This document shows positions 46,161-55,888 of a stretch of DNA of 64,000 nt, one piece after another; positions within the stretch are counted from its first letter, which is position 1, and each line of letters opens with the position of its first letter. A program made the position numbers and the translations under genes. The notes beneath the pieces are model-generated. The model saw nothing but the letters and a program-made list of their open reading frames with translations, was not told the DNA's origin and did no database searches. This stretch comes from Geoalkalibacter subterraneus (GTDB taxonomy: Bacteria; Desulfobacterota; Desulfuromonadia; Desulfuromonadales; Geoalkalibacteraceae): positions 1,116,001 to 1,180,000 of the forward strand of contig NZ_CP010311.1 of assembly GCF_000827125.1 (NCBI RefSeq), written 5' to 3'.

Positions 46161-46994
46161 TCAGGCCGTTGGAGGGGTGTCCCTGCTTTGCGTTTCCACG
46201 AATTCCATTTCCAGCAGATCGACAATCAGAGTGCGCCCCCGCAACGGCGTGCCGCGTCCCAGCAGAACCTTGCAGACCTCGGCAGCCTGCAGGCTTGCAA
46301 TCACCGCGGGAGTGAAAGAAGGGTTGCCAAGCTCCTTCTCAATTCCACGGCCGTTCTGCGGATAGTTCTCCTGCACGGTTCGTTCGCCGGGGAACTGGGT
46401 CGTGACTTGCCCGTACCAGCCGGCGATGGCGCCGTGAACCATGGTAATCCCCAGGGCTGAACTGATTTCCGCCAGCTCAAGACGCCCCTCGATATTGTCC
46501 AGCGCATCCACCGCGACCGTGCTTTCGGACAGCAACTCCATGCCATTATTCCGGCCGAAAGCCTTTTGGTGGGTGATGACCTCCACTGCCGGGTTGATCT
46601 CCCTCAGACGTTTTTTCGCGACATCCACTTTGGGCGTGCCGAGCAGGGCAGGGGTGGCCAGCAATTGCCGGTTGAGATTGTGTTCTTCAAACACATCGGG
46701 GTCGATGGCGACAATTCGTCCAACGCCAAGCCGGCCCAGTTCTTCGAGAATATAGCCGCCCAGCCCACCACAGCCGATGACAGCCACCCGGCTTTCAGCC
46801 AGCCGCAGTTGATCGGCGAGGGTCAGCATGTTGCGGTTGCGTTGATAGCGTGCAGGCAGCAGATTTCTTTCAAGGGCCAGTCGTTCAATCCGGGCCCAGC
46901 TCAGGCCGGACTGTTCGACCGCTTGCCCCAGAGCTTCTTGAGAGAGCAGGCCGTCGCGGGATTGGGCCGCCAGAAAAGAGCAGACATCTTCCAT
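46161..46994 (-). CDS. MoeB/ThiF/HesA-family adenylyltransferase of the aor operon
   Basis: It should activate the C-terminal Gly-Gly of the adjacent MoaD with ATP so that sulfur can be added for molybdopterin synthesis. The 277-residue protein has a helical N-terminal extension (about 60 residues) and then the ATP motif VAVIGCGGLGGYILEELGRL (about 88-107) and DPDVFEEHNLNRQLL. DALDNIEGRLELAE and SLQAAEVCKVLLG follow later. The two CxxC zinc pairs and the catalytic Cys region of typical MoeB/ThiF are absent. GGAGGAGG lies before the ATG, which starts one base after the moaD stop. It is the last gene of aor-moaD-moeB-like. Confidence 0.87.
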   Translation of the reverse strand: MEDVCSFLAAQSRDGLLSQEALGQAVEQSGLSWARIERLALERNLLPARYQRNRNMLTLADQLRLAESRVAVIGCGGLGGYILEELGRLGVGRIVAIDPDVFEEHNLNRQLLATPALLGTPKVDVAKKRLREINPAVEVITHQKAFGRNNGMELLSESTVAVDALDNIEGRLELAEISSALGITMVHGAIAGWYGQVTTQFPGERTVQENYPQNGRGIEKELGNPSFTPAVIASLQAAEVCKVLLGRGTPLRGRTLIVDLLEMEFVETQSRDTPPTA

Positions 46995-46995
46995 T

Positions 46996-47220
46996 TCAGC
47001 CTCCTCCGACCAGCGGAAAGAGCGCAAGCGCATCTCCTTCCTTGAGTTCATAATCCAGTGCCGCGTGACGGTAGTTGACCATCACCACCCCCAGTTGATC
47101 TTCCGATAAGCCCAATTCTTCCACAATGCGGCGGACAGGCGTTCCAGGTGGGTAGTCACGATCCTCGACTTTGAAGCGCCCGACCCGGAACGAGGCGAAG
47201 AGTTTAACGGTGATCTTCAT
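46996..47220 (-). CDS. moaD: MoaD-like molybdopterin synthase small subunit (AOR-associated)
   Basis: This 74-residue beta-grasp sulfur carrier ends in PLVGGG, with the C-terminal Gly-Gly needed for thiocarboxylation. The body MKITVKLFASFRVGRF and EGDALALFPLVGG fit MoaD. It lies 89 bp after aor and directly before the adenylyltransferase gene, so it probably makes the pterin dithiolene for the tungsten cofactor of AOR. The start at 47220 is chosen for the family N-terminus; the in-frame extension would read into the intergenic space. Confidence 0.88.
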   Translation of the reverse strand: MKITVKLFASFRVGRFKVEDRDYPPGTPVRRIVEELGLSEDQLGVVMVNYRHAALDYELKEGDALALFPLVGGG

Positions 47221-47309
47221 GCTGCAGACTCCCCGTGGCTGGATGAAAAAAATCCCGGTGTGGTTGAAACGGACCACACCGGGCATGGAGAGAAATGGAC
47301 AGAAAGATG

Positions 47310-49040
47310 TTAGAAGTTCCAGAACTCGTCGATTTCCTCGTCACTGAAATCCCAGACCACATTGTGCGGCGGCACGGGTTCGGTGTTGAAGAATTCCGGC
47401 AGGCGGTCGTGACTGCTGTTGAAACCGGCTTCGGTGTTGAACTTGCGCTCGAGTTTCAGGATGCTCTTGCCGAGATCGGTGACATCGTCACCGGTGAGGC
47501 TGATGCCGAAGCGCGCGTTGATCATGTCGATGAGCGCCGGCAGGCATTCGGGGATATCAAGTGCCGGGAATGCGACGAAGATGCACATGCCGGTGGAATC
47601 GACGGCGGCGGTGGCGATCTGCAGGTTGCGTGAGAGTTCCACCTGGCCGTCCTTCTTCAACGGGTCGACCTGGCCGCCGACTCCGAGGATGTTGGTGGCG
47701 ATGCAGTAGCCGGCCGTGTGGTCGGCTCCCATGGTCGAGGTCGCATAGGTGATGCCGATCCCCTTGATGGAGCGTGGATCGTAAGCGGGGATCGCCTGGT
47801 TTTTGACGACCGGAATGCGAGTGAGGCCGTAAGCCTTGCCGACGCTGGCGGTGCCATTGCCGATGATGCGCCCCAATGGTGTCCCCTTGGCGACTTCCTC
47901 GCGCAGAAGGCGTTTGATTCCGGCGGCGTCTCCGAAGGGCAGCACGCCGGCTTCCATGGCGACGCCCATGGCGACCGCCGTTTCAATGGAATCCACGCCG
48001 ATATCGTCCATGATGTTGTCGATCTCGGCCATGGCGTCGAGGTCGCTGATGCAACAGTCGGCGCCCAGCCCCCAGATCGTTTCGTATTCGAAACCTGAAG
48101 AGAGATATTTGCCGTCTTTGTCCACGTAGACCTGGGAGCACTGGATAATGCATCCGGCATGGCAGCCGTGCTTGAATTTGCCGCCGCGCTTGGCGATGGT
48201 TTCCTGCATGGTCTCGCCGGAGATCTTGTCGTGTTCCTTGTACTGGCCCTCTTTGAAGTTGCGGGTCGGCAGGCCGCCTGCTTCGTTGATGATGTTGACC
48301 AGCACGTTGGTGCCATAGGTGGGTAGTCCTTCGCCGCTGACCGGATGATCGAGCAGCGCCTTGGCGAAGGTGCGTGCAGCGGTTTTGAATTTTTCCGGAT
48401 CGGCGACAGTGACGCCGGGGGCATCCTTGTCGTCGATACTGATGAATTTAATCCGCTTGGAGCCCATTACCGCCCCCATGCCGCCGCGGCCGTGGCTGCG
48501 CATCTTGCTGTCCGGGTCCTTGACCGAGATGTTGGCCATCTCCATCTTCATTTCGCCGGCCGGGCCGATGGTGATCAGTCCTGTTTTCTTGTTGAAGCGT
48601 GCTTCGACCGCGTCGACCACCTCGAAATTGCCTTTGCCTAACAGTTCTTTTTCTTCCTGGAGCGTGGCTCCGTCTTTGGTGAGGTGTAGATTGTACCACT
48701 TATCCTCCTGGGGCTGCCCTTCGATGATCAGGGCCTTGATTCCCATGCGGGCGAACTGCTGCGCGGAGGTGCCGCCGGCGTTGCTCTCTTTGATGGTACC
48801 GGTCAGCGGGCTCTTGGCGCCGCAGGACATGCGCCCGGAATTGGCTGCAGCGGTACCGGAGAGCAATCCCGGTGCGAAAACCAGCTTGTTGTTGGGACCC
48901 AGAGGGTGACAGGTCGGGGGCACTTCGGCCGCGACGATGGTGGAGGTCAGCCCGCGGCCGCCGAGCCCGGCCCAGGCTTCGGGGACCTCTTCAACCTGGC
49001 AGGTCAGGTTCGACATATTGACGCGAAAAATCTTATCCAT
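47310..49040 (-). CDS. aor: Tungsten-type aldehyde:ferredoxin oxidoreductase
   Basis: AOR oxidises aldehydes to acids and reduces ferredoxin, using a tungsten bis-pterin and one 4Fe-4S cluster. The 576-residue protein has the family N-terminal domain (GRGLTSTIVA, the SGRMSCGAKSPLTGTIKESN pterin region and KMRSHGRGGMGAVMGSKRIK). Cluster cysteines appear as CHAGCIIQC (293, 297, 301) and Cys486 in DSTGMCIFVAF. The first pair is three residues apart, where the archaeal prototype has two. Transcription passes through a Moco/Tuco-type leader. It reduces ferredoxin or, in reverse, acids; ADH genes nearby supply aldehyde. Confidence 0.93.
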   Translation of the reverse strand: MDKIFRVNMSNLTCQVEEVPEAWAGLGGRGLTSTIVAAEVPPTCHPLGPNNKLVFAPGLLSGTAAANSGRMSCGAKSPLTGTIKESNAGGTSAQQFARMGIKALIIEGQPQEDKWYNLHLTKDGATLQEEKELLGKGNFEVVDAVEARFNKKTGLITIGPAGEMKMEMANISVKDPDSKMRSHGRGGMGAVMGSKRIKFISIDDKDAPGVTVADPEKFKTAARTFAKALLDHPVSGEGLPTYGTNVLVNIINEAGGLPTRNFKEGQYKEHDKISGETMQETIAKRGGKFKHGCHAGCIIQCSQVYVDKDGKYLSSGFEYETIWGLGADCCISDLDAMAEIDNIMDDIGVDSIETAVAMGVAMEAGVLPFGDAAGIKRLLREEVAKGTPLGRIIGNGTASVGKAYGLTRIPVVKNQAIPAYDPRSIKGIGITYATSTMGADHTAGYCIATNILGVGGQVDPLKKDGQVELSRNLQIATAAVDSTGMCIFVAFPALDIPECLPALIDMINARFGISLTGDDVTDLGKSILKLERKFNTEAGFNSSHDRLPEFFNTEPVPPHNVVWDFSDEEIDEFWNF

Positions 49041-49076
49041 ATTTTCCTCTCCCTTTTCGTGAGGGGGTAGACAAAA

Positions 49077-49177
49077 AACGCATCTCCTTTCCGAAAGGGA
49101 GGCTGCGCCGTTTCCAACGCAACCCGTCGGCCGGTCGCCATGAGAGATTTCCGGTAGGCGGCAAGGCTCGGAGAGCA
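49077..49177 (-). ncRNA. Moco/Tuco riboswitch candidate upstream of aor
   Basis: Read on the minus strand, the leader has CTCTCCGAGCC (49175-49165), GTTGGAAACGGC, GCCTCCC and GGAAAGGAGA, the same ordered blocks as the leader of tupA. These are the conserved core elements of the Moco RNA class. A run of six T residues follows at about 49078-49073 and the aor ribosome binding site GGGAGAGG lies 20 bases further. Either a terminator or occlusion of this site could give control. In this class some variants are thought to sense the tungsten cofactor. Confidence 0.75.
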
Positions 49178-49192
49178 GGGTAAGAATTTACC

Positions 49193-49201: not shown

Positions 49202-49213
49202 CTTCATGGCGGT

Positions 49214-49255
49214 GAAGCAGGGGAAGGGGTGATTTTACCTCCTCCCCTGCTTCAC
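49214..49255 (-). terminator. Hairpin between adh1 and the aor leader
   Basis: GTGAAGCAGGGGA (49214-49226) and TCCCCTGCTTCAC (49243-49255) form a 13-bp perfect stem. It lies downstream of the minus-strand adh1 stop and just upstream of the aor promoter, so it should separate the two transcripts. Confidence 0.75.
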
Positions 49256-49287: not shown

Positions 49288-50451
49288 TTACATGGCCGCT
49301 TTGTAGATGCCGATGACGCAATCGAGGGTCGCGACCCGGGGATTGGTCAGCATGCATGCGTCTTTCATGGCGTTCTCGGCCATGATGCGCAGGTCGGTTT
49401 CTTTTACATCGAGATCTTTCAGTCCGGCGGGGATGCCTATGTCCCTGGAAAGCTTGCGAATGGCGGCGATGCCTTTGGCGGCTGCATCCATATCGGAGAG
49501 CCCTTCGATGTTTTCGCCCATGGCCACGGCAATATCGGCGAACCGTTTGGGATTGGAGATCATGTTGAACTCGCACACCGCCGGAAGCAGGATGGCGTTG
49601 CACACTCCGTGGGGAAGGTTGTAGAAGCCGCCGAGCTGGTGAGCCATGGCATGGACGTAGCCAAGGCTGGCATTGTTGAATGCCATGCCGGCGAGGTATT
49701 CGGCATAAGCCATTTTGTCGCGGGCTTCAAGGTTCTGGCCGTTGGCGACGACCGGGCGGAGGTAGTCGGAGACAAGTTCGATGGCCTTGATGGCGCAGGC
49801 GTCGGTGATGGGGGTTGCAATCGTTGAGACATACGCTTCGACGGCGTGGGTCAGGGCGTCCATGCCGGTGGCAGCGGTCAGGGCGGCGGGCTTGCCGACC
49901 ATCAGCACGGGATCGTTGATCGCGATATTGGGGGTGCAGCGCCAGTCGACGATGGCCATCTTGACCTTTGTGTCCGTGTTGGTGATGATGCAGAAGCGGG
50001 TCATCTCCGAAGCAGTGCCGGCGGTGGTGTTGATGGCGACAAAGGGGGGCATGGGTTTGGTGCTTTTGTCGACGCCCTCGAAGTCGCGGATGTTGCCGCC
50101 ATTTCCGATGACCAGGCCGATCCCCTTGGCGCAGTCGTGGGAGCTGCCACCGCCGAGGGAGATGATGGCGTCGCAGTTGTTCTTTTGGTAAGCTTTGACG
50201 CCGTCATGGACGTTGGTGTCGGTCGGATTCGGCTCGGCGCCGTCGAAGATCACCACCGGAACGCCGGCTTTTTCCACCTGCTTTTTGATCTGGTCGGCCA
50301 TGCCGATCCCCGAGATTCCCTTGTCGGTAACCAGCAGAGCCTTGGTCGCGCCCAGTGCTTTGGCCTGGTCGCCGGCTTCTTTGGAAGAACCGACGCCCAT
50401 GAGAGAAACAGTGGGGATGAAGAATCCGAAAGTTTGATCTGCCAATGCCAT
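49288..50451 (-). CDS. Iron-containing alcohol dehydrogenase 1
   Basis: This NAD-dependent group III alcohol dehydrogenase has 387 residues. It has the Rossmann-like SLGGGSSHDCAKGIGL motif, TTAGTASEMTRFCII, and the iron ligands in GMDALTHAVEAY, HAMAHQLGGFYNLPHG. ADQTFGFFIPTVSLMG at the N-terminus matches the ethanol and 1,3-propanediol dehydrogenase group. The start at 50451 follows AGGAGAG. A sigma-54 promoter lies at 50580-50595 and a palindrome further upstream. The downstream aor gene has its own promoter, so the two are probably regulated separately but act in sequence: alcohol to aldehyde, then aldehyde to acid. Confidence 0.93.
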   Translation of the reverse strand: MALADQTFGFFIPTVSLMGVGSSKEAGDQAKALGATKALLVTDKGISGIGMADQIKKQVEKAGVPVVIFDGAEPNPTDTNVHDGVKAYQKNNCDAIISLGGGSSHDCAKGIGLVIGNGGNIRDFEGVDKSTKPMPPFVAINTTAGTASEMTRFCIITNTDTKVKMAIVDWRCTPNIAINDPVLMVGKPAALTAATGMDALTHAVEAYVSTIATPITDACAIKAIELVSDYLRPVVANGQNLEARDKMAYAEYLAGMAFNNASLGYVHAMAHQLGGFYNLPHGVCNAILLPAVCEFNMISNPKRFADIAVAMGENIEGLSDMDAAAKGIAAIRKLSRDIGIPAGLKDLDVKETDLRIMAENAMKDACMLTNPRVATLDCVIGIYKAAM

Positions 50452-50579
50452 AATCTTCTCTCTCCTTTTTGTTGCAGCCCGGGCAACGGTCCGGGCCGGA
50501 ATGTTGTGCCGGGGGAGGAATCTTCTCGGAAAACCCATAGCCCCAAGCGGTAAAACGTTGGTTTGATTTGCAGGTATAC

Positions 50580-50595
50580 AGCAACAAGAGTGCCA
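50580..50595 (-). promoter_or_regulatory. Sigma-54 promoter of adh1
   Basis: On the minus strand TGGCACTCTTGTTGCT matches the -24/-12 consensus with GG and GC ten bases apart. Transcription would start near 50569, about 118 bases before the adh1 ATG. The NtrC-type regulator encoded at 57674 is the nearest candidate activator. Confidence 0.85.
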
Positions 50596-50688
50596 TTTTG
50601 TGAGAAAAGTCATATATTGCTGAAATGATTAAAATTATTCTTTTTTACGATGCGTCAACAAAGATTGGGATTATGGCAGGCGTTCCAC

Positions 50689-50728: not shown

Positions 50729-50951
50729 GAAAAGGAGGAGGGGGCTTTGTCTCTTCGTGAAGAAAGTCGCGAACCGAAATCTCCTTGTTCTCAGGTGGGG
50801 CGATATGATCCATTCTGGAACAGCCGGTGGGGCATTTTGTACCGACCATTGGCGCTCCAATCAGCTTCATCTCTGCTCATTCTCTTTTGAAAACAGTGGG
50901 ATAGGTGTTTGCGCACGGGAATTGCTTGTATACCATCAAATAAAATAGAAT

Positions 50952-51060
50952 CTCCGAGCCGTTGCGCCTGAGGGGATGCCTCCCCATGGCATGCGGCCAA
51001 TGGGTACAGTTGGAAACGGCTGTGCCTCCCGGTATGGAAAGGAGACCTCAAGGCTCGGTC
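50952..51060 (+). ncRNA. Moco/Tuco riboswitch upstream of tupA
   Basis: CTCCGAGCC (50952-50960) pairs with GGCTCGG (51052-51058) as the closing P1 helix. Between them are a GC-rich hairpin arm (GAGGGGATGCCTCCCC region), GTTGGAAACGGC (51009-51020), GCCTCCC (51024-51030) and GGAAAGGAGACC (51036-51047). These are the ordered conserved blocks of the Moco RNA class. An intrinsic terminator follows at 51095. Downstream genes import tungstate and insert metal (moeA), which fits feedback by the pterin cofactor. Confidence 0.82.
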
Positions 51061-51094
51061 TGTGGGCGATGCTGCACGCAGATGAAGCAGATAG

Positions 51095-51125
51095 AGGCTT
51101 TCCCTTTTCGGGCAAGCCTTTTTTT
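51095..51125 (+). terminator. Riboswitch-associated terminator before tupA
   Basis: AGGCTT-T-CCC pairs with GGG-C-AAGCCT and is followed by TTTTTT. It is placed 35 bases after the riboswitch core and 70 bases before tupA, as expected for transcription attenuation. Confidence 0.8.
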
Positions 51126-51196
51126 GTTGCTCAAAGCAGGGGGGGCAGCCTGCAAGGTGAACAGAGCGTTTTCATTTTTCCCGAAAGGATTTGTAC

Positions 51197-52012
51197 ATGA
51201 ACATTGTGCGCTTTTTGAAAGTTTCCCTGCTTCTGGTTTTATTGACGGCTCATACCGCCCCGGCGGCAGAGCGGCTACGCATGTCGACCACGACTTCCAC
51301 CGAAAATTCCGGCCTGCTCGACCAGCTTCTGCCCCCTTTTGAAGAACTTCATGACTGTCAGGTTGCCGTGATCGCCGTTGGAACGGGCAAGGCTTTGAAG
51401 ATTGCTGAATCCGGCGATGTCGACATCGTTCTGGTTCATGCGCGCGCCCTGGAAGATGCTTTTGTGGAAGCCGGCTACGGTGTGAACAGGCGTGATGTCA
51501 TGTATAACGATTTTGTCATCCTCGGACCGTCAGACGACCCGGCCAACGCCGCCCAAGCCTCCTCCGCGGCGGAGGCGCTGGCAATCATTGCAGAGGCCCA
51601 GTCTGCCTTCGTCTCGCGCGGCGATGAGTCCGGAACCCACCAGAAGGAAAAGCAGCTGTGGAAACAGGCCGGCATTTCCCCGGAGGGGCAGTGGTATATC
51701 GAATCGGGACACGGGATGGGAGAAGTGATCGTCATGGCGACCCAGAAGGGCGGATATACGCTTGCCGATCGCGGAACCTATATCGCTTTCCAAAAGGAAA
51801 AGACCGATCTTGAGATCGTTTTTGAGGGAGAGGAAGGGCTTTTTAATCCCTACGGCGTGATTGCTGTCAATCCCCAAAAGCATCCTCATGTCAAATATGA
51901 CCTGGCCATGAAATTCGTTGAATTCATCACCGGCCCCGTCGGACAGAAGATTATTGATGATTTCAAAATCGACGGGGAGCAGGTCTTTTTTCCCGTGAAC
52001 CTCTCACGCTAA
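51197..52012 (+). CDS. tupA: Tungstate ABC transporter substrate-binding protein
   Basis: TupA binds tungstate in the periplasm. The 271-residue protein has a signal peptide (VRFLKVSLLLVLLTAHTAPAA) followed by the TupA signature RLRMSTTTSTENSGLLDQLL and GTGKALKIAESGDVDIVLVHA and SRGDESGTHQKEKQLW. These features are typical of TupA rather than ModA, so tungstate is the likely ligand. AAAGGA lies before the ATG at 51197. It heads tupA-tupB-tupC-moeA behind a riboswitch. Confidence 0.92.
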   Translation: MNIVRFLKVSLLLVLLTAHTAPAAERLRMSTTTSTENSGLLDQLLPPFEELHDCQVAVIAVGTGKALKIAESGDVDIVLVHARALEDAFVEAGYGVNRRDVMYNDFVILGPSDDPANAAQASSAAEALAIIAEAQSAFVSRGDESGTHQKEKQLWKQAGISPEGQWYIESGHGMGEVIVMATQKGGYTLADRGTYIAFQKEKTDLEIVFEGEEGLFNPYGVIAVNPQKHPHVKYDLAMKFVEFITGPVGQKIIDDFKIDGEQVFFPVNLSR

Positions 52013-52028: not shown

Positions 52029-52715
52029 TTGGATTTTCTGATCGAGTCGTTGCGCTCGGCTCTGGGGCTGGTTTTTACCGCCGACCCGGATGTGGTGCAC
52101 GCGGTGTGGACTTCTCTCTATACGTCGGTGACTGCCATCATTTTTTCGGCCGTGGTTGCGATTCCGGCGGGGGTCGGCATCGGGTTGGGGCGTTTCCCCG
52201 GTCGCAGGGCAATATTGACCGGGCTCAACACGATGATGGCTCTTCCCACTGTCGTCATTGGCCTGGTTCTGTTCGGTTTTTTCAGTCGCCAGGGGCCGCT
52301 GGGAAGCCTCGGGCTGTTATTTACGCCGATGGCTCTAATCGTTGGACAGATGGTGCTTGCCTGGCCCATTGTCGCCAATTATACCGTAGCTGCGGTGGCC
52401 GGGGCCGACCCGCGCATCATGCCGACGGCTCTCACTCTCGGGGCGGGGCGCATGCGGGCGGTCTGGCAGCTTCTGCTCGAGATCCGCTTCGGCATCATCG
52501 CGGCGATTGTCGCCGGATTCGGCCGGGTGATCGCAGAGGTCGGCGTCGCCATGATGCTCGGCGGCAACATTCGCGGCTATACCCGGACCATGACGACCGC
52601 TATCGCCCTTGAAACCAGTAAAGGGGAATTCGCCTTCGGTCTGGCGTTGGGAATCGTCCTGATCACAGTGGCGCTGATGGTCAATCTCTTTCTCAACCTG
52701 CTTCAACAGCATTAG
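52029..52715 (+). CDS. tupB: Tungstate ABC transporter permease
   Basis: The 228-residue permease has about five membrane segments and the ABC coupling motif region (AALTLGAGRMRAVWQLLLEI-like: PTALTLGAGRMRAVWQLLLE then EVGVAMMLGGNIRGYTRTMT). The VWTSLYTSVTAIIFSAVVAIPAG start fits the TupB type. The start codon is a TTG at 52029. It lies between tupA and tupC in one operon. Confidence 0.9.
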   Translation: MDFLIESLRSALGLVFTADPDVVHAVWTSLYTSVTAIIFSAVVAIPAGVGIGLGRFPGRRAILTGLNTMMALPTVVIGLVLFGFFSRQGPLGSLGLLFTPMALIVGQMVLAWPIVANYTVAAVAGADPRIMPTALTLGAGRMRAVWQLLLEIRFGIIAAIVAGFGRVIAEVGVAMMLGGNIRGYTRTMTTAIALETSKGEFAFGLALGIVLITVALMVNLFLNLLQQH

Positions 52716-52719
52716 GCCT

Positions 52720-53418
52720 ATGGACCCTATATTCTCAATTCGTCATCTGGAATTCCGGCGCGGGGAGAGCTTCAGCCTGGCAATCGAGCAGATCGATTTC
52801 CAGGCTGGCCAGATTTACCTCCTGGCAGGCGCCAACGGCGCCGGCAAGAGTACCCTGCTGCAACTGCTGGCCCTGCTGATCGCTCCCGACCGGGGTGAAA
52901 TCCGCTTCGACGGGAATACAGTCAAAGGGGCGGCGGGACGTCACAGGTTTCGCCGAAAGATCACCCTGGTCGATCAGTCCCCCTTTCTTTTCGATACCAC
53001 GGTATATAATAACCTGGCGTTTGGTCTGCGCATGCGCGATGTAAATGGCGACCTGCAGCGCCGCCGTATTCTCAAGGCGCTGAACTCCGTCGGCCTGGAA
53101 GGATTTGAAAACCGTCGTGCCCGTGCGCTTTCCGGTGGTGAGAGCCGGCGTGTGGCCCTGGCCCGTGCCCTGGTCATCCGCCCCAAAGTCCTTTTATTGG
53201 ATGAACCGACCGCAGGCCTTGACGATGACTCCCTTTCGCTTTTTGAAACCAATCTGGCCGCGCTGTCGGAAGCGGGTGTGACGGTAATCATGTCCACTCA
53301 CGATGGCGGTCAGGCCCGCCGATTGAACGGCAAAGTTTTCCGGCTTGAAAACGGCAGGTTGACGGGGGCTGTCGAGACCTTATCTTCTGAATATTGCCCT
53401 ATGGAGAATGTTTTATGA
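52720..53418 (+). CDS. tupC: Tungstate ABC transporter ATP-binding protein
   Basis: The 232-residue ATPase has Walker A GANGAGKST (about residues 38-46), signature LSGGESRRVALARAL, and Walker B VLLLDEPTAGLD. It lacks a C-terminal TOBE domain of the ModC kind, as expected for TupC. The stop overlaps the moeA start by 4 bp, so tungstate uptake and cofactor metal insertion are coupled. Confidence 0.9.
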   Translation: MDPIFSIRHLEFRRGESFSLAIEQIDFQAGQIYLLAGANGAGKSTLLQLLALLIAPDRGEIRFDGNTVKGAAGRHRFRRKITLVDQSPFLFDTTVYNNLAFGLRMRDVNGDLQRRRILKALNSVGLEGFENRRARALSGGESRRVALARALVIRPKVLLLDEPTAGLDDDSLSLFETNLAALSEAGVTVIMSTHDGGQARRLNGKVFRLENGRLTGAVETLSSEYCPMENVL

Positions 53419-54629
53419 GCATCTGCTTTGAAGATGCACGCGCGATGATTCTGGAAAATGTCCCCACTCTCGGTGTAGAGCGAGTGCCGCTGCTTGATGC
53501 CTGCGGGCGGGTTCTGGCCGAAGACGTGATTGCGCCCTGGCCCATGCCGCTGTGCGACAATTCCGCCATGGACGGCTTTGCCGTGCGGGCTGCCGACTGC
53601 AGGGAAGGTGTCACCCTCAGAATCTCCGGCTATATCCCGGCCGGCGGACGTCCTGAACCGTCCGTGGAGCCGGGGTGTGCGGTGAAGATCATGACCGGTG
53701 CGCCCATCCCCCCGCAGTGCGATGCCGTGGTCCCCTTCGAAGAGACCGAGGAAAGCGGTGACAGCGTTAAACTCACCGCTCCTGTGGCTCTGCGTCAGCA
53801 TATCCGCTTTCACGGTGAAGACGTCTCTCCCGGGGATGTCATCATTCCGGCGGCAACCGTGCTGCGTCCGCCCGAGATCAGCATGCTGGCCTCCATGGGG
53901 ATGGTCATGGTTCCGGTTCATCGCCGCCCGCGGGTTGCCATTCTTTCCACCGGTGACGAGCTGATCGAGTTGGGCCAGCCGCCGGCGGAGGGGAAGATCA
54001 TCAATTCCAACTCCTTTTCACTGGCGGCGGCGGTCAGGGAATGCGGCGGCGAACCGGTGATGCTGGGCATCGCGCTGGATACGCCTGAGGACCATCGCCG
54101 CAAATTGACCGAGGGGCTTAGCTGCGACGCCCTGATCACTTCGGCCGGGGTGTCGGCCGGCGATCGCGATTTTGTGCGCGATGTGCTGGCGGATCTCGGT
54201 GCCCGGCAGCTGTTCTGGAAGGTGGCCATCAAACCGGGCGGTCCAACGGCGTTCAGTCTTAAGGGTCAGACCCCTATTTTTTCCCTGCCGGGTAACCCGG
54301 TGTCCACCATGATCACCTTTGAGCAGTTCGTGCGGCCGGCCCTGCTGCGCATGATGGGGCATCAGCGGGTGGTGCGCCCCTTCGTCAAGGGCGTTCTGAA
54401 GGAGGATACAAAGAAAAAGCCCGGCAAGGTCAACTTCATCCGGGTGCGGGTAACGATTGAGGACGGCCGCTACACCGCCTCCACCGCCGGTGATCAGCAC
54501 ACCGGCATCCTGCGTACCATGGTGTGCGCCAACGGCCTGGCGGTTCTGCCGCGCGAGGCAACTTTTCTGCCCGCCGGCACCGAAGTGGATCTGCAGATCC
54601 TGCGCGACGAAGTGACGATGCTGCCGTAA
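53415..54629 (+). CDS. moeA: Molybdopterin molybdenumtransferase MoeA
   Basis: MoeA inserts molybdate or tungstate into adenylated molybdopterin. The 404-residue protein has all four domains, with DNSAMDGFAVR (about residues 47-57), VKIMTGAPIPPQCDAVVPFEE, STGDELIELG, KPGGPT and FSLPGNPVSTMITFEQFV motifs. Because it follows tupC by a 4-bp overlap, this copy may be dedicated to tungsten. Another MoeA elsewhere would be expected for molybdenum enzymes. It lies under the riboswitch of tupA. Confidence 0.95.
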   Translation: MSICFEDARAMILENVPTLGVERVPLLDACGRVLAEDVIAPWPMPLCDNSAMDGFAVRAADCREGVTLRISGYIPAGGRPEPSVEPGCAVKIMTGAPIPPQCDAVVPFEETEESGDSVKLTAPVALRQHIRFHGEDVSPGDVIIPAATVLRPPEISMLASMGMVMVPVHRRPRVAILSTGDELIELGQPPAEGKIINSNSFSLAAAVRECGGEPVMLGIALDTPEDHRRKLTEGLSCDALITSAGVSAGDRDFVRDVLADLGARQLFWKVAIKPGGPTAFSLKGQTPIFSLPGNPVSTMITFEQFVRPALLRMMGHQRVVRPFVKGVLKEDTKKKPGKVNFIRVRVTIEDGRYTASTAGDQHTGILRTMVCANGLAVLPREATFLPAGTEVDLQILRDEVTMLP

Positions 54630-54739: not shown

Positions 54740-55888
54740 GTGAATATCAGTAAGTTCGTCGCCCCTGAAATCATTTTCGGACAGGGGTCTCTCAGTCAGA
54801 TCGGCGAAAGTGCCGTGCGTCTTGGCGCCTCCAAGGTTTTCCTCGTCAGCGACGAGGGGGTGATCAACGCCGGCTGGGCCGACCTGGCTCTGCATTATCT
54901 GCGCGCCGCCGGCCTGGAGGCGGAGGTTTTTAGCGCTTTGACCACAAATCCCAAGGATTTTGAGGTCACCCAGGGGGTGGAGCATTACCTGGCCTCCGGT
55001 TGTGACGCCCTGGTTGCGGTGGGGGGCGGCAGCCCGACGGACGTCGCCAAGGCGATCGCCATTCTTGCGACCAACGGCGGCAAGCTTCAGGACTTTGAAG
55101 GGATCAATAAAATCACCCACCCGCTGCCGCCGATGGTCATTGCCCCCAGTACCGCCGGAGCGGGTTCCGAAGTCAGCCAGTTCGCCATCATCGTCGACAC
55201 CATCCGTAACCTCAAGATGTCCATTATCTCCAAATCCCTGGTGCCGGACATCGCAATTGTCGACCCGGAGCTGCTCAAAACCAAAGATGCCCTGCTGGCG
55301 GCCGCGACCGGTCTCGACGCCCTGACTCACGGCATCGAATCCTATGTTTCGCTGGCGGCGACGCCGTTGACCGATATTCACGCTCTCAAGTCCATCGAAC
55401 TGATTTCGAGAAACCTGCGCCGCCTGGTGGCCGATCGCACCGATATGGAAGCCGGCACCGATATGGCCATGGCCAGCCTGACGGCGGGGCTTGCCTTCTC
55501 CAACGCGATTCTTGGCGCCACTCACGCCATGACCCACCAGGTGGATGGCCAGATCGACCAGCACCATGGCGAAACCAATGCATCGATCCTGCCTCATGTC
55601 ATGGCGTTCAATCTGCCTGTCTGCCTGGAACGATTTCGGGATATTGCGGTGGCTATGGGGGAGGATACTGCCGGCTTGGACCTGGAATCCGCAGCACGTC
55701 TTTCCATCACTGCGGTTGAGGCCCTGATTGCCGACATCGGACTGCAAAAGGGGTTGGCTCAAATAGGGCTTGAATCAAAGGATATCCCGATGCTCAGTGG
55801 GAACGCCATGAAGGATGCCTGCCTGGTGACCAACCCGCGCAATGCGACACAGGAAGATATCGAGGCGATCTTTCATAAGGCCATGTGA
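54740..55888 (+). CDS. Iron-containing alcohol dehydrogenase 2
   Basis: This second group III alcohol dehydrogenase has 382 residues. It has VAVGGGSPTDVAKAIA, PSTAGAGSEVSQFAII and iron ligands in GLDALTHGIESY and ATHAMTHQVDGQIDQHHGE. It differs clearly from the first copy in the N-terminus and in the metal-site loop, so it may have another substrate range. The GTG start at 54740 follows AGGAG (54730-54734). The start extends upstream only through the 20-bp palindrome, which supports the shorter frame. The kinase gene starts 36 bp after it. Confidence 0.9.
   Translation: MNISKFVAPEIIFGQGSLSQIGESAVRLGASKVFLVSDEGVINAGWADLALHYLRAAGLEAEVFSALTTNPKDFEVTQGVEHYLASGCDALVAVGGGSPTDVAKAIAILATNGGKLQDFEGINKITHPLPPMVIAPSTAGAGSEVSQFAIIVDTIRNLKMSIISKSLVPDIAIVDPELLKTKDALLAAATGLDALTHGIESYVSLAATPLTDIHALKSIELISRNLRRLVADRTDMEAGTDMAMASLTAGLAFSNAILGATHAMTHQVDGQIDQHHGETNASILPHVMAFNLPVCLERFRDIAVAMGEDTAGLDLESAARLSITAVEALIADIGLQKGLAQIGLESKDIPMLSGNAMKDACLVTNPRNATQEDIEAIFHKAM

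Follow-up and report, generated by a model that had tools for sequence, protein, structure and literature searches.

A P3-less Moco-family leader RNA before tupABC-moeA of Geoalkalibacter subterraneus and a sister copy of predicted opposite logic

Genes and leader RNAs of the locus

In the window, i.e. the whole 64,000-nucleotide stretch of Geoalkalibacter subterraneus DNA analysed in the current study, two divergent operons carry tungsten-related genes, and each has one Moco-family RNA in its leader (table 1). The first, tupABC-moeA, was identified by NCBIfam and Pfam matches to tupA, tupB, an ABC ATPase and moeA, and both the coordinates and the target genes given in the initial annotation were correct. 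The scores of TupA and TupB lie below the NCBI equivalog cut-offs (400 and 320 bits, respectively); the TupA model was the sole NCBIfam match of its protein, and the TupB model was the best equivalog-level match of the permease. At the equivalog level, no other name fits either protein better than tungstate transport.

The second operon begins with a gene for aldehyde:ferredoxin oxidoreductase (AOR), the product of which is 81% identical to the AOR of Geobacter argillaceus and of a Geobacteraceae bin. The Moco RNA in its leader was absent from the initial annotation and lies 2 kb from the tup copy. Between this RNA and an iron alcohol dehydrogenase gene there is a near-perfect inverted repeat without a U-run, GTGAAGCAGGGG...CCCCTGCTTCAC (49212-49254, minus strand). 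Two iron-containing alcohol dehydrogenases are located around the tungsten cluster (49291-50613, minus strand; 54740-55885, plus strand, with ErcA as its nearest family), which together with AOR suggests a module for tungsten-dependent alcohol or aldehyde oxidation.

Table 1. Coordinates of genes and RNA features at the tup and AOR operons (positions in the window).
Feature	Position	Strand	Basis or remark
MoeB/HesA-like adenylyltransferase, AOR operon	46161-47051	-	PF00899
MoaD/ThiS-like protein, AOR operon	46996-47286	-	PF02597
AOR, tungsten enzyme family	47310-49040	-	PF01314, PF02730
AOR ribosome-binding site CGAAAAGGGAGAGG	49046-49059	-	sequence; pairing test
P3-less Moco-family aptamer, AOR operon leader	49068-49185	-	cmscan 59.5 bits, cut-off 36
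Aptamer segment CUCCCUUUCG; in the ligand-free state predicted to mask the AOR ribosome-binding site	49092-49101	-	SD duplex -13.9 kcal/mol; leader MFE
P3-less Moco-family (RF01055) aptamer, tupABC-moeA leader	50940-51060	+	cmscan 65.0 bits, cut-off 36
tup P1 5' strand UCUCC	50951-50955	+	CM alignment; MFE; constrained fold, all pairs canonical
tup P2 hairpin	50958-50997	+	CM alignment
tup J2/4, 4 nt, at the site P3 would occupy	50998-51001	+	P3 deleted in CM alignment
tup P4, 11 bp, GAAA tetraloop	51002-51027	+	CM alignment, constrained fold, MFE
tup P5/J5-1/P1 3' segment CCCGGUAUGGAAAGGAGACCUC, predicted antiterminator left half (pairs with 51094-51112)	51028-51049	+	
tup P1 3' strand GGAGA	51041-51045	+	pairs with UCUCC 50951-50955
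GGCUCGG, formerly supposed P1 3' strand, complements CCGAGCC 50954-50960	51052-51058	+	not family-conserved
Intrinsic-terminator-like hairpin (51093-51121) with U-run to 51125; 5' arm GAGGCUUUCC, predicted antiterminator target	51093-51125	+	
tupA, tungstate-binding protein (possible ORF start at 51191)	51197-52012	+	NF041772, 245 bits, E 8.5e-73
tupB, permease	52029-52715	+	NF041773, 209 bits, E 7.9e-62
tupC, ABC ATPase	52720-53418	+	PF00005; name from position
moeA	53415-54629	+	PF03453, PF00994, PF03454

The initial annotation had assigned the tup leader to the Moco RNA class, and the covariance search that it proposed as a check, run with RF01055, supported this by a match 29 bits above the gathering score (E 2e-13 for the 64-kb window). 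The unconstrained MFE structure of 50952-51044 corresponds to P1 (CUCC/GGAG), P2, P4 and P5 of the family (z = -2.0), and the CM alignment recovered these helices together with the GAAA tetraloop and the conserved junction blocks. Both window RNAs share with the published motif (PMC2408646) the conserved CUCCGAGC, P1, P2, the GAAA-capped P4, CCUCCC and GGAAAGGAG, and no difference was seen in their aptamer core. Genes of Mo/W cofactor, transport or enzyme function follow both RNAs (tupABC-moeA; AOR-moaD-hesA). The columns of P3 are deleted in both; the 4-nt J2/4 found in the tup copy is the most frequent length among related RNAs. Judged from its sequence, the tup leader RNA scores well within a known riboswitch family, of which it is an unexceptional representative, and falls in the proposed tungsten subclass.

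A different P1 (CCGAGCC/GGCTCGG) had been supposed earlier. The two strands are complementary, yet the P1 of the family is the UCUCC/GGAGA helix, and CCGAGCC is composed of CC from P1, GA from the junction and GCC from P2. A complement of 6-7 nt to the CCGAGCC block 3' of the aptamer was found in only one of 212 related RNAs (6.2 expected from shuffles), and is therefore peculiar to the tup copy, which rules it out as a conserved switch element. As an antiterminator it was rejected by sequence reasoning, since it would enclose the terminator-pairing strand rather than free it.

Terminator and predicted antiterminator of the tup leader

The intrinsic terminator that the initial annotation had placed 3' of the aptamer was confirmed by folding: the hairpin at 51088-51126, with its U-run, had a dG of -17.3 (z = -4.3), and none of 200 shuffles was as good. 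The consensus terminator scan missed this hairpin, probably because of one-base bulges, and it was folding with shuffles that detected it.

The strands CCCGG, GGAAAG and CCUC (within 51028-51049) are predicted to form an antiterminator with GAGGCUUUCC (51094-51103) and UCGGG (51108-51112), in which CCCGG-UCGGG extends the pairing of GGAAAG and CCUC with the terminator 5' arm. For transcripts ending at 51114-51118, the MFE structure was identical to the antiterminator-enforced fold (-72.5 kcal/mol, compared to -68.4 and -71.9 for folds in which the aptamer was enforced). Once the transcript extended past 51122, the form with aptamer and terminator was favoured (-75.7 vs. -72.5).

Because the tup antiterminator by itself was modest compared to shuffles (z -1.4), the principle was examined in relatives. 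Of 92 related terminators, 57 contained 5 nt or more of CCUUUCC (complementary to the invariant GGAAAGG) or a stretch of 6 nt or more that complements the P5 of the same RNA, compared to 8.6 expected. On average, RNAs paired better with their own terminators than with exchanged ones, and none of 5000 re-pairings of the 92 terminators was as good. In the computed folds the terminator and a structure involving the aptamer are mutually exclusive, and this arrangement recurs in relatives.

According to the folding model, the tup leader is organised like an OFF switch, with one set of bases contested by aptamer and antiterminator. When ligand is absent, the 3' segment of the aptamer would pair with the terminator 5' arm and loop, and transcription would proceed; when ligand is present, P1 and P5 would close, allowing the terminator to form, and tungstate uptake would stop.

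Leader of the AOR operon

No terminator was found in the AOR leader of the window. Terminators followed only one of 28 AOR RNAs, compared to 34 of 50 RNAs before tup, moeA or modA (p 1e-8; this and the p-values below are too optimistic, because the sequences and leaders compared are related by descent). In AOR leaders the start codon is mostly located 48-70 nt downstream of CCUCCC, and the ribosome-binding site complements CCUCCC together with the variable bases 3' of it, CUCCCUUUC opposite GAAAGGGAG giving nine pairs in several families of the order. In the window, the aptamer CUCCCUUUC is likewise predicted to pair with the ribosome-binding site. Pairing between SD and aptamer was stronger in AOR leaders (median -13.8) than for 241 other SD regions (-7.3, p 6e-9) or for 19 AOR genes without a Moco RNA (-9.0, p 5e-4), and an Rfam scan of these control genes found no degenerate Moco RNAs.

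When the aptamer was enforced, the mean unpaired probability of the SD rose from 0.24 to 0.45 (16 up and 1 down among 26), with moderate values in the window leader (0.40 to 0.73). From the complementarity of the SD and its release when the aptamer is forced, AOR is predicted to be ON with the cofactor. CUCCCUUUCG could mask the ribosome-binding site when ligand is absent, and ligand binding would pull this strand into P4/P5, switching AOR translation on. Not all AOR leaders share this logic, since in one sister family (genomes G008, G028, G039 and G054) the SD remains paired even with the aptamer enforced.

The latter family would also agree with a design in which both RNAs of the window are OFF switches, and the complementarity in the AOR leader arises incidentally, from a strong Shine-Dalgarno sequence that meets the invariant aptamer CCUCCC, a motif that pairs with any GGGAGG-type site. 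The somewhat higher anti-SD affinity at AOR sites with the RNA (-8.4 vs. -7.1, p 0.002) and the repressing nature of the E. coli moaA RNA (PMC2408646) point in the same direction. However, the complement does not end with the SD core but continues into the variable UUUC (in several families amounting to 9 bp), AOR genes without the RNA mostly lack it, and when partners were swapped among AOR leaders, the original pairs were equalled in just 2 of 2000 trials. We regard the repression of both operons as unlikely, though it carries appreciable weight, and favour a translational ON switch for the AOR copy.

Ligand and relation to other Moco-family RNAs

Regulski et al. 2008 divided Moco RNAs by the presence of P3, and proposed that the P3-less 'Tuco' subclass (which made up 58 of the 176 RNAs surveyed) senses the tungsten cofactor (PMC2408646). 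No published test of the ligand specificity of this subclass was found in the literature searched. The window RNAs resemble the subclass in lacking P3 and in their targets (tup, AOR and moeA), and the genome possesses, besides the tup operon, two AOR-family genes. The comparison sample consisted of 223 distinct related Moco RNAs, of which 22 had TupA and 28 had AOR as their first gene downstream; tup targets are thus not unusual, other than had been implied earlier. P3 status was judged from total length and inspection; automatic detection by P2 pairing was noisy. By length, P3 was lacking in 49 of 50 RNAs with AOR or TupA as first gene, compared to 14 of 29 before moaA or modA. On inspection, seven of 28 long RNAs proved to combine a long P2 with the absence of P3, and the sole length-based exception before AOR or tupA (L104) likewise looked P3-less.

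No convincing P3 was found in the RNAs sampled from the window's phylum, irrespective of the gene that follows; seven of these RNAs precede moaA and two modA. The absence of P3 is therefore less informative for the window RNAs and is weak evidence for the ligand, and the loss of P3 may reflect lineage rather than ligand. Stronger evidence for tungsten is the distribution in the genome: RF01055 had exactly two matches, before tup and AOR, and no Moco RNA was found at the one modA, the one moaA or the at least four strong molybdopterin-oxidoreductase (Mo-type) matches. The tungsten-sensing variant suggested in the initial annotation thus stays plausible by its gene distribution and missing P3, while the argument from P3 is weakened by the phylum-wide absence. 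One molybdopterin-oxidoreductase frame (G000:C1:2757882-2759288) contains an in-frame TGA, and is possibly a selenocysteine formate dehydrogenase.

The situation in the phylum also fits ordinary Moco riboswitches that bind Moco and Tuco (or any metal-bearing pterin cofactor) alike, with P3 as a lineage-specific accessory helix; in E. coli, deletion of P3 abolished regulation, instead of shifting specificity (PMC2408646). This would leave unexplained why the genome keeps the RNA at tungsten genes only, despite its modA, moaA and Mo-type enzymes, and why virtually no RNA with P3 was found ahead of AOR or tupA; such a lack of discrimination is rather unlikely. That the tup RNA is instead read by a protein (e.g. 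a CsrA-like or ModE-like factor), with no direct cofactor binding, is improbable: the instability of the cofactor has stood in the way of a direct demonstration of ligand binding in the Moco family (PMC2408646), but the large conserved multi-helix aptamer and the typical riboswitch platforms speak against such a reader, and the mutually exclusive pairings found here require no protein. It is barely conceivable that the tup copy is degenerate and its hairpin a mere terminator of the upstream gene, since nothing strong favours this beyond a possible misfolding of the aptamer by the CCGAGCC/GGCUCGG complement, whereas the score clearly exceeds the threshold, the MFE structure reproduces the family core, the neighbouring upstream gene is divergently oriented and the terminator arm is tied to the antiterminator.

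The tup leader is thus probably a P3-less Moco-family riboswitch, most likely sensing Tuco directly and acting as a transcriptional OFF switch, with the AOR copy as a translational ON switch. More tentatively, the same tungsten-cofactor aptamer may be used twice with opposite logic, the cofactor terminating transcription of the uptake genes and moeA and freeing the AOR ribosome-binding site; the ON design would be common to AOR leaders of about six or seven families of the order, with about 9 bp of SD/aptamer complementarity.

The moaA riboswitch of E. coli belongs to the same aptamer family, but has P3 and masks the ribosome-binding site inside P1 before moaABCDE (translational OFF), whereas the tup copy uses a terminator and the AOR copy is predicted to free the ribosome-binding site upon ligand binding. 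In Syntrophomonas wolfei, P3-less RNAs with terminators also precede molybdopterin and metal-transport genes, but three are arranged in series in one operon, in contrast to one RNA per operon, with different platforms, in the window. Tandem Moco RNAs were reported earlier for Syntrophomonas and Geobacter; same-strand pairs a few hundred bases apart were also seen here (L183, G018:C1:1190919-1191242; L184, L185, L248, L250 and L279).

P3-less Moco RNAs were further detected before genes of Porin_O_P (PF07396) outer-membrane proteins (11 cases, including L183, L184, L185, L201, L125, L127, L235 and L249), and near a TonB-dependent receptor (L145); these are candidate genes for tungstate uptake across the outer membrane. 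In Syntrophomonas- and Gelria-type genomes, others precede Big_5 (bacterial Ig-like) or Pfam-less proteins (L047, L080, L097; L055, L089).

The Moco/Tuco RNA family is already known, and Regulski et al. 2008 mention terminator platforms and tungstate transport genes; they describe repression and terminators and no activating copy (PMC2408646), in contrast to the activation predicted for the AOR copy. What the present computations add is the detailed prediction of an antiterminator with counterparts across the family, and evidence that points to an opposite, activating logic in a sister copy at a tungsten enzyme gene. No activating Moco or Tuco RNA was described in the literature searched (subscription literature lay outside its scope), within which the AOR copy would be the first in the family, and the paired opposite logic would be new. 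If this logic is true, the AOR enzyme would be made only when its cofactor exists. Tungsten-cofactor sensing by P3-less Moco RNAs is a proposal that has been standing since 2008, and this genome offers a clean test case: both of its P3-less RNAs lie at tungsten genes, and their platforms predict responses in opposite directions. If tungstate moved the two leaders in opposite directions, this would reveal the class of ligand and distinguish direct sensing from general effects.
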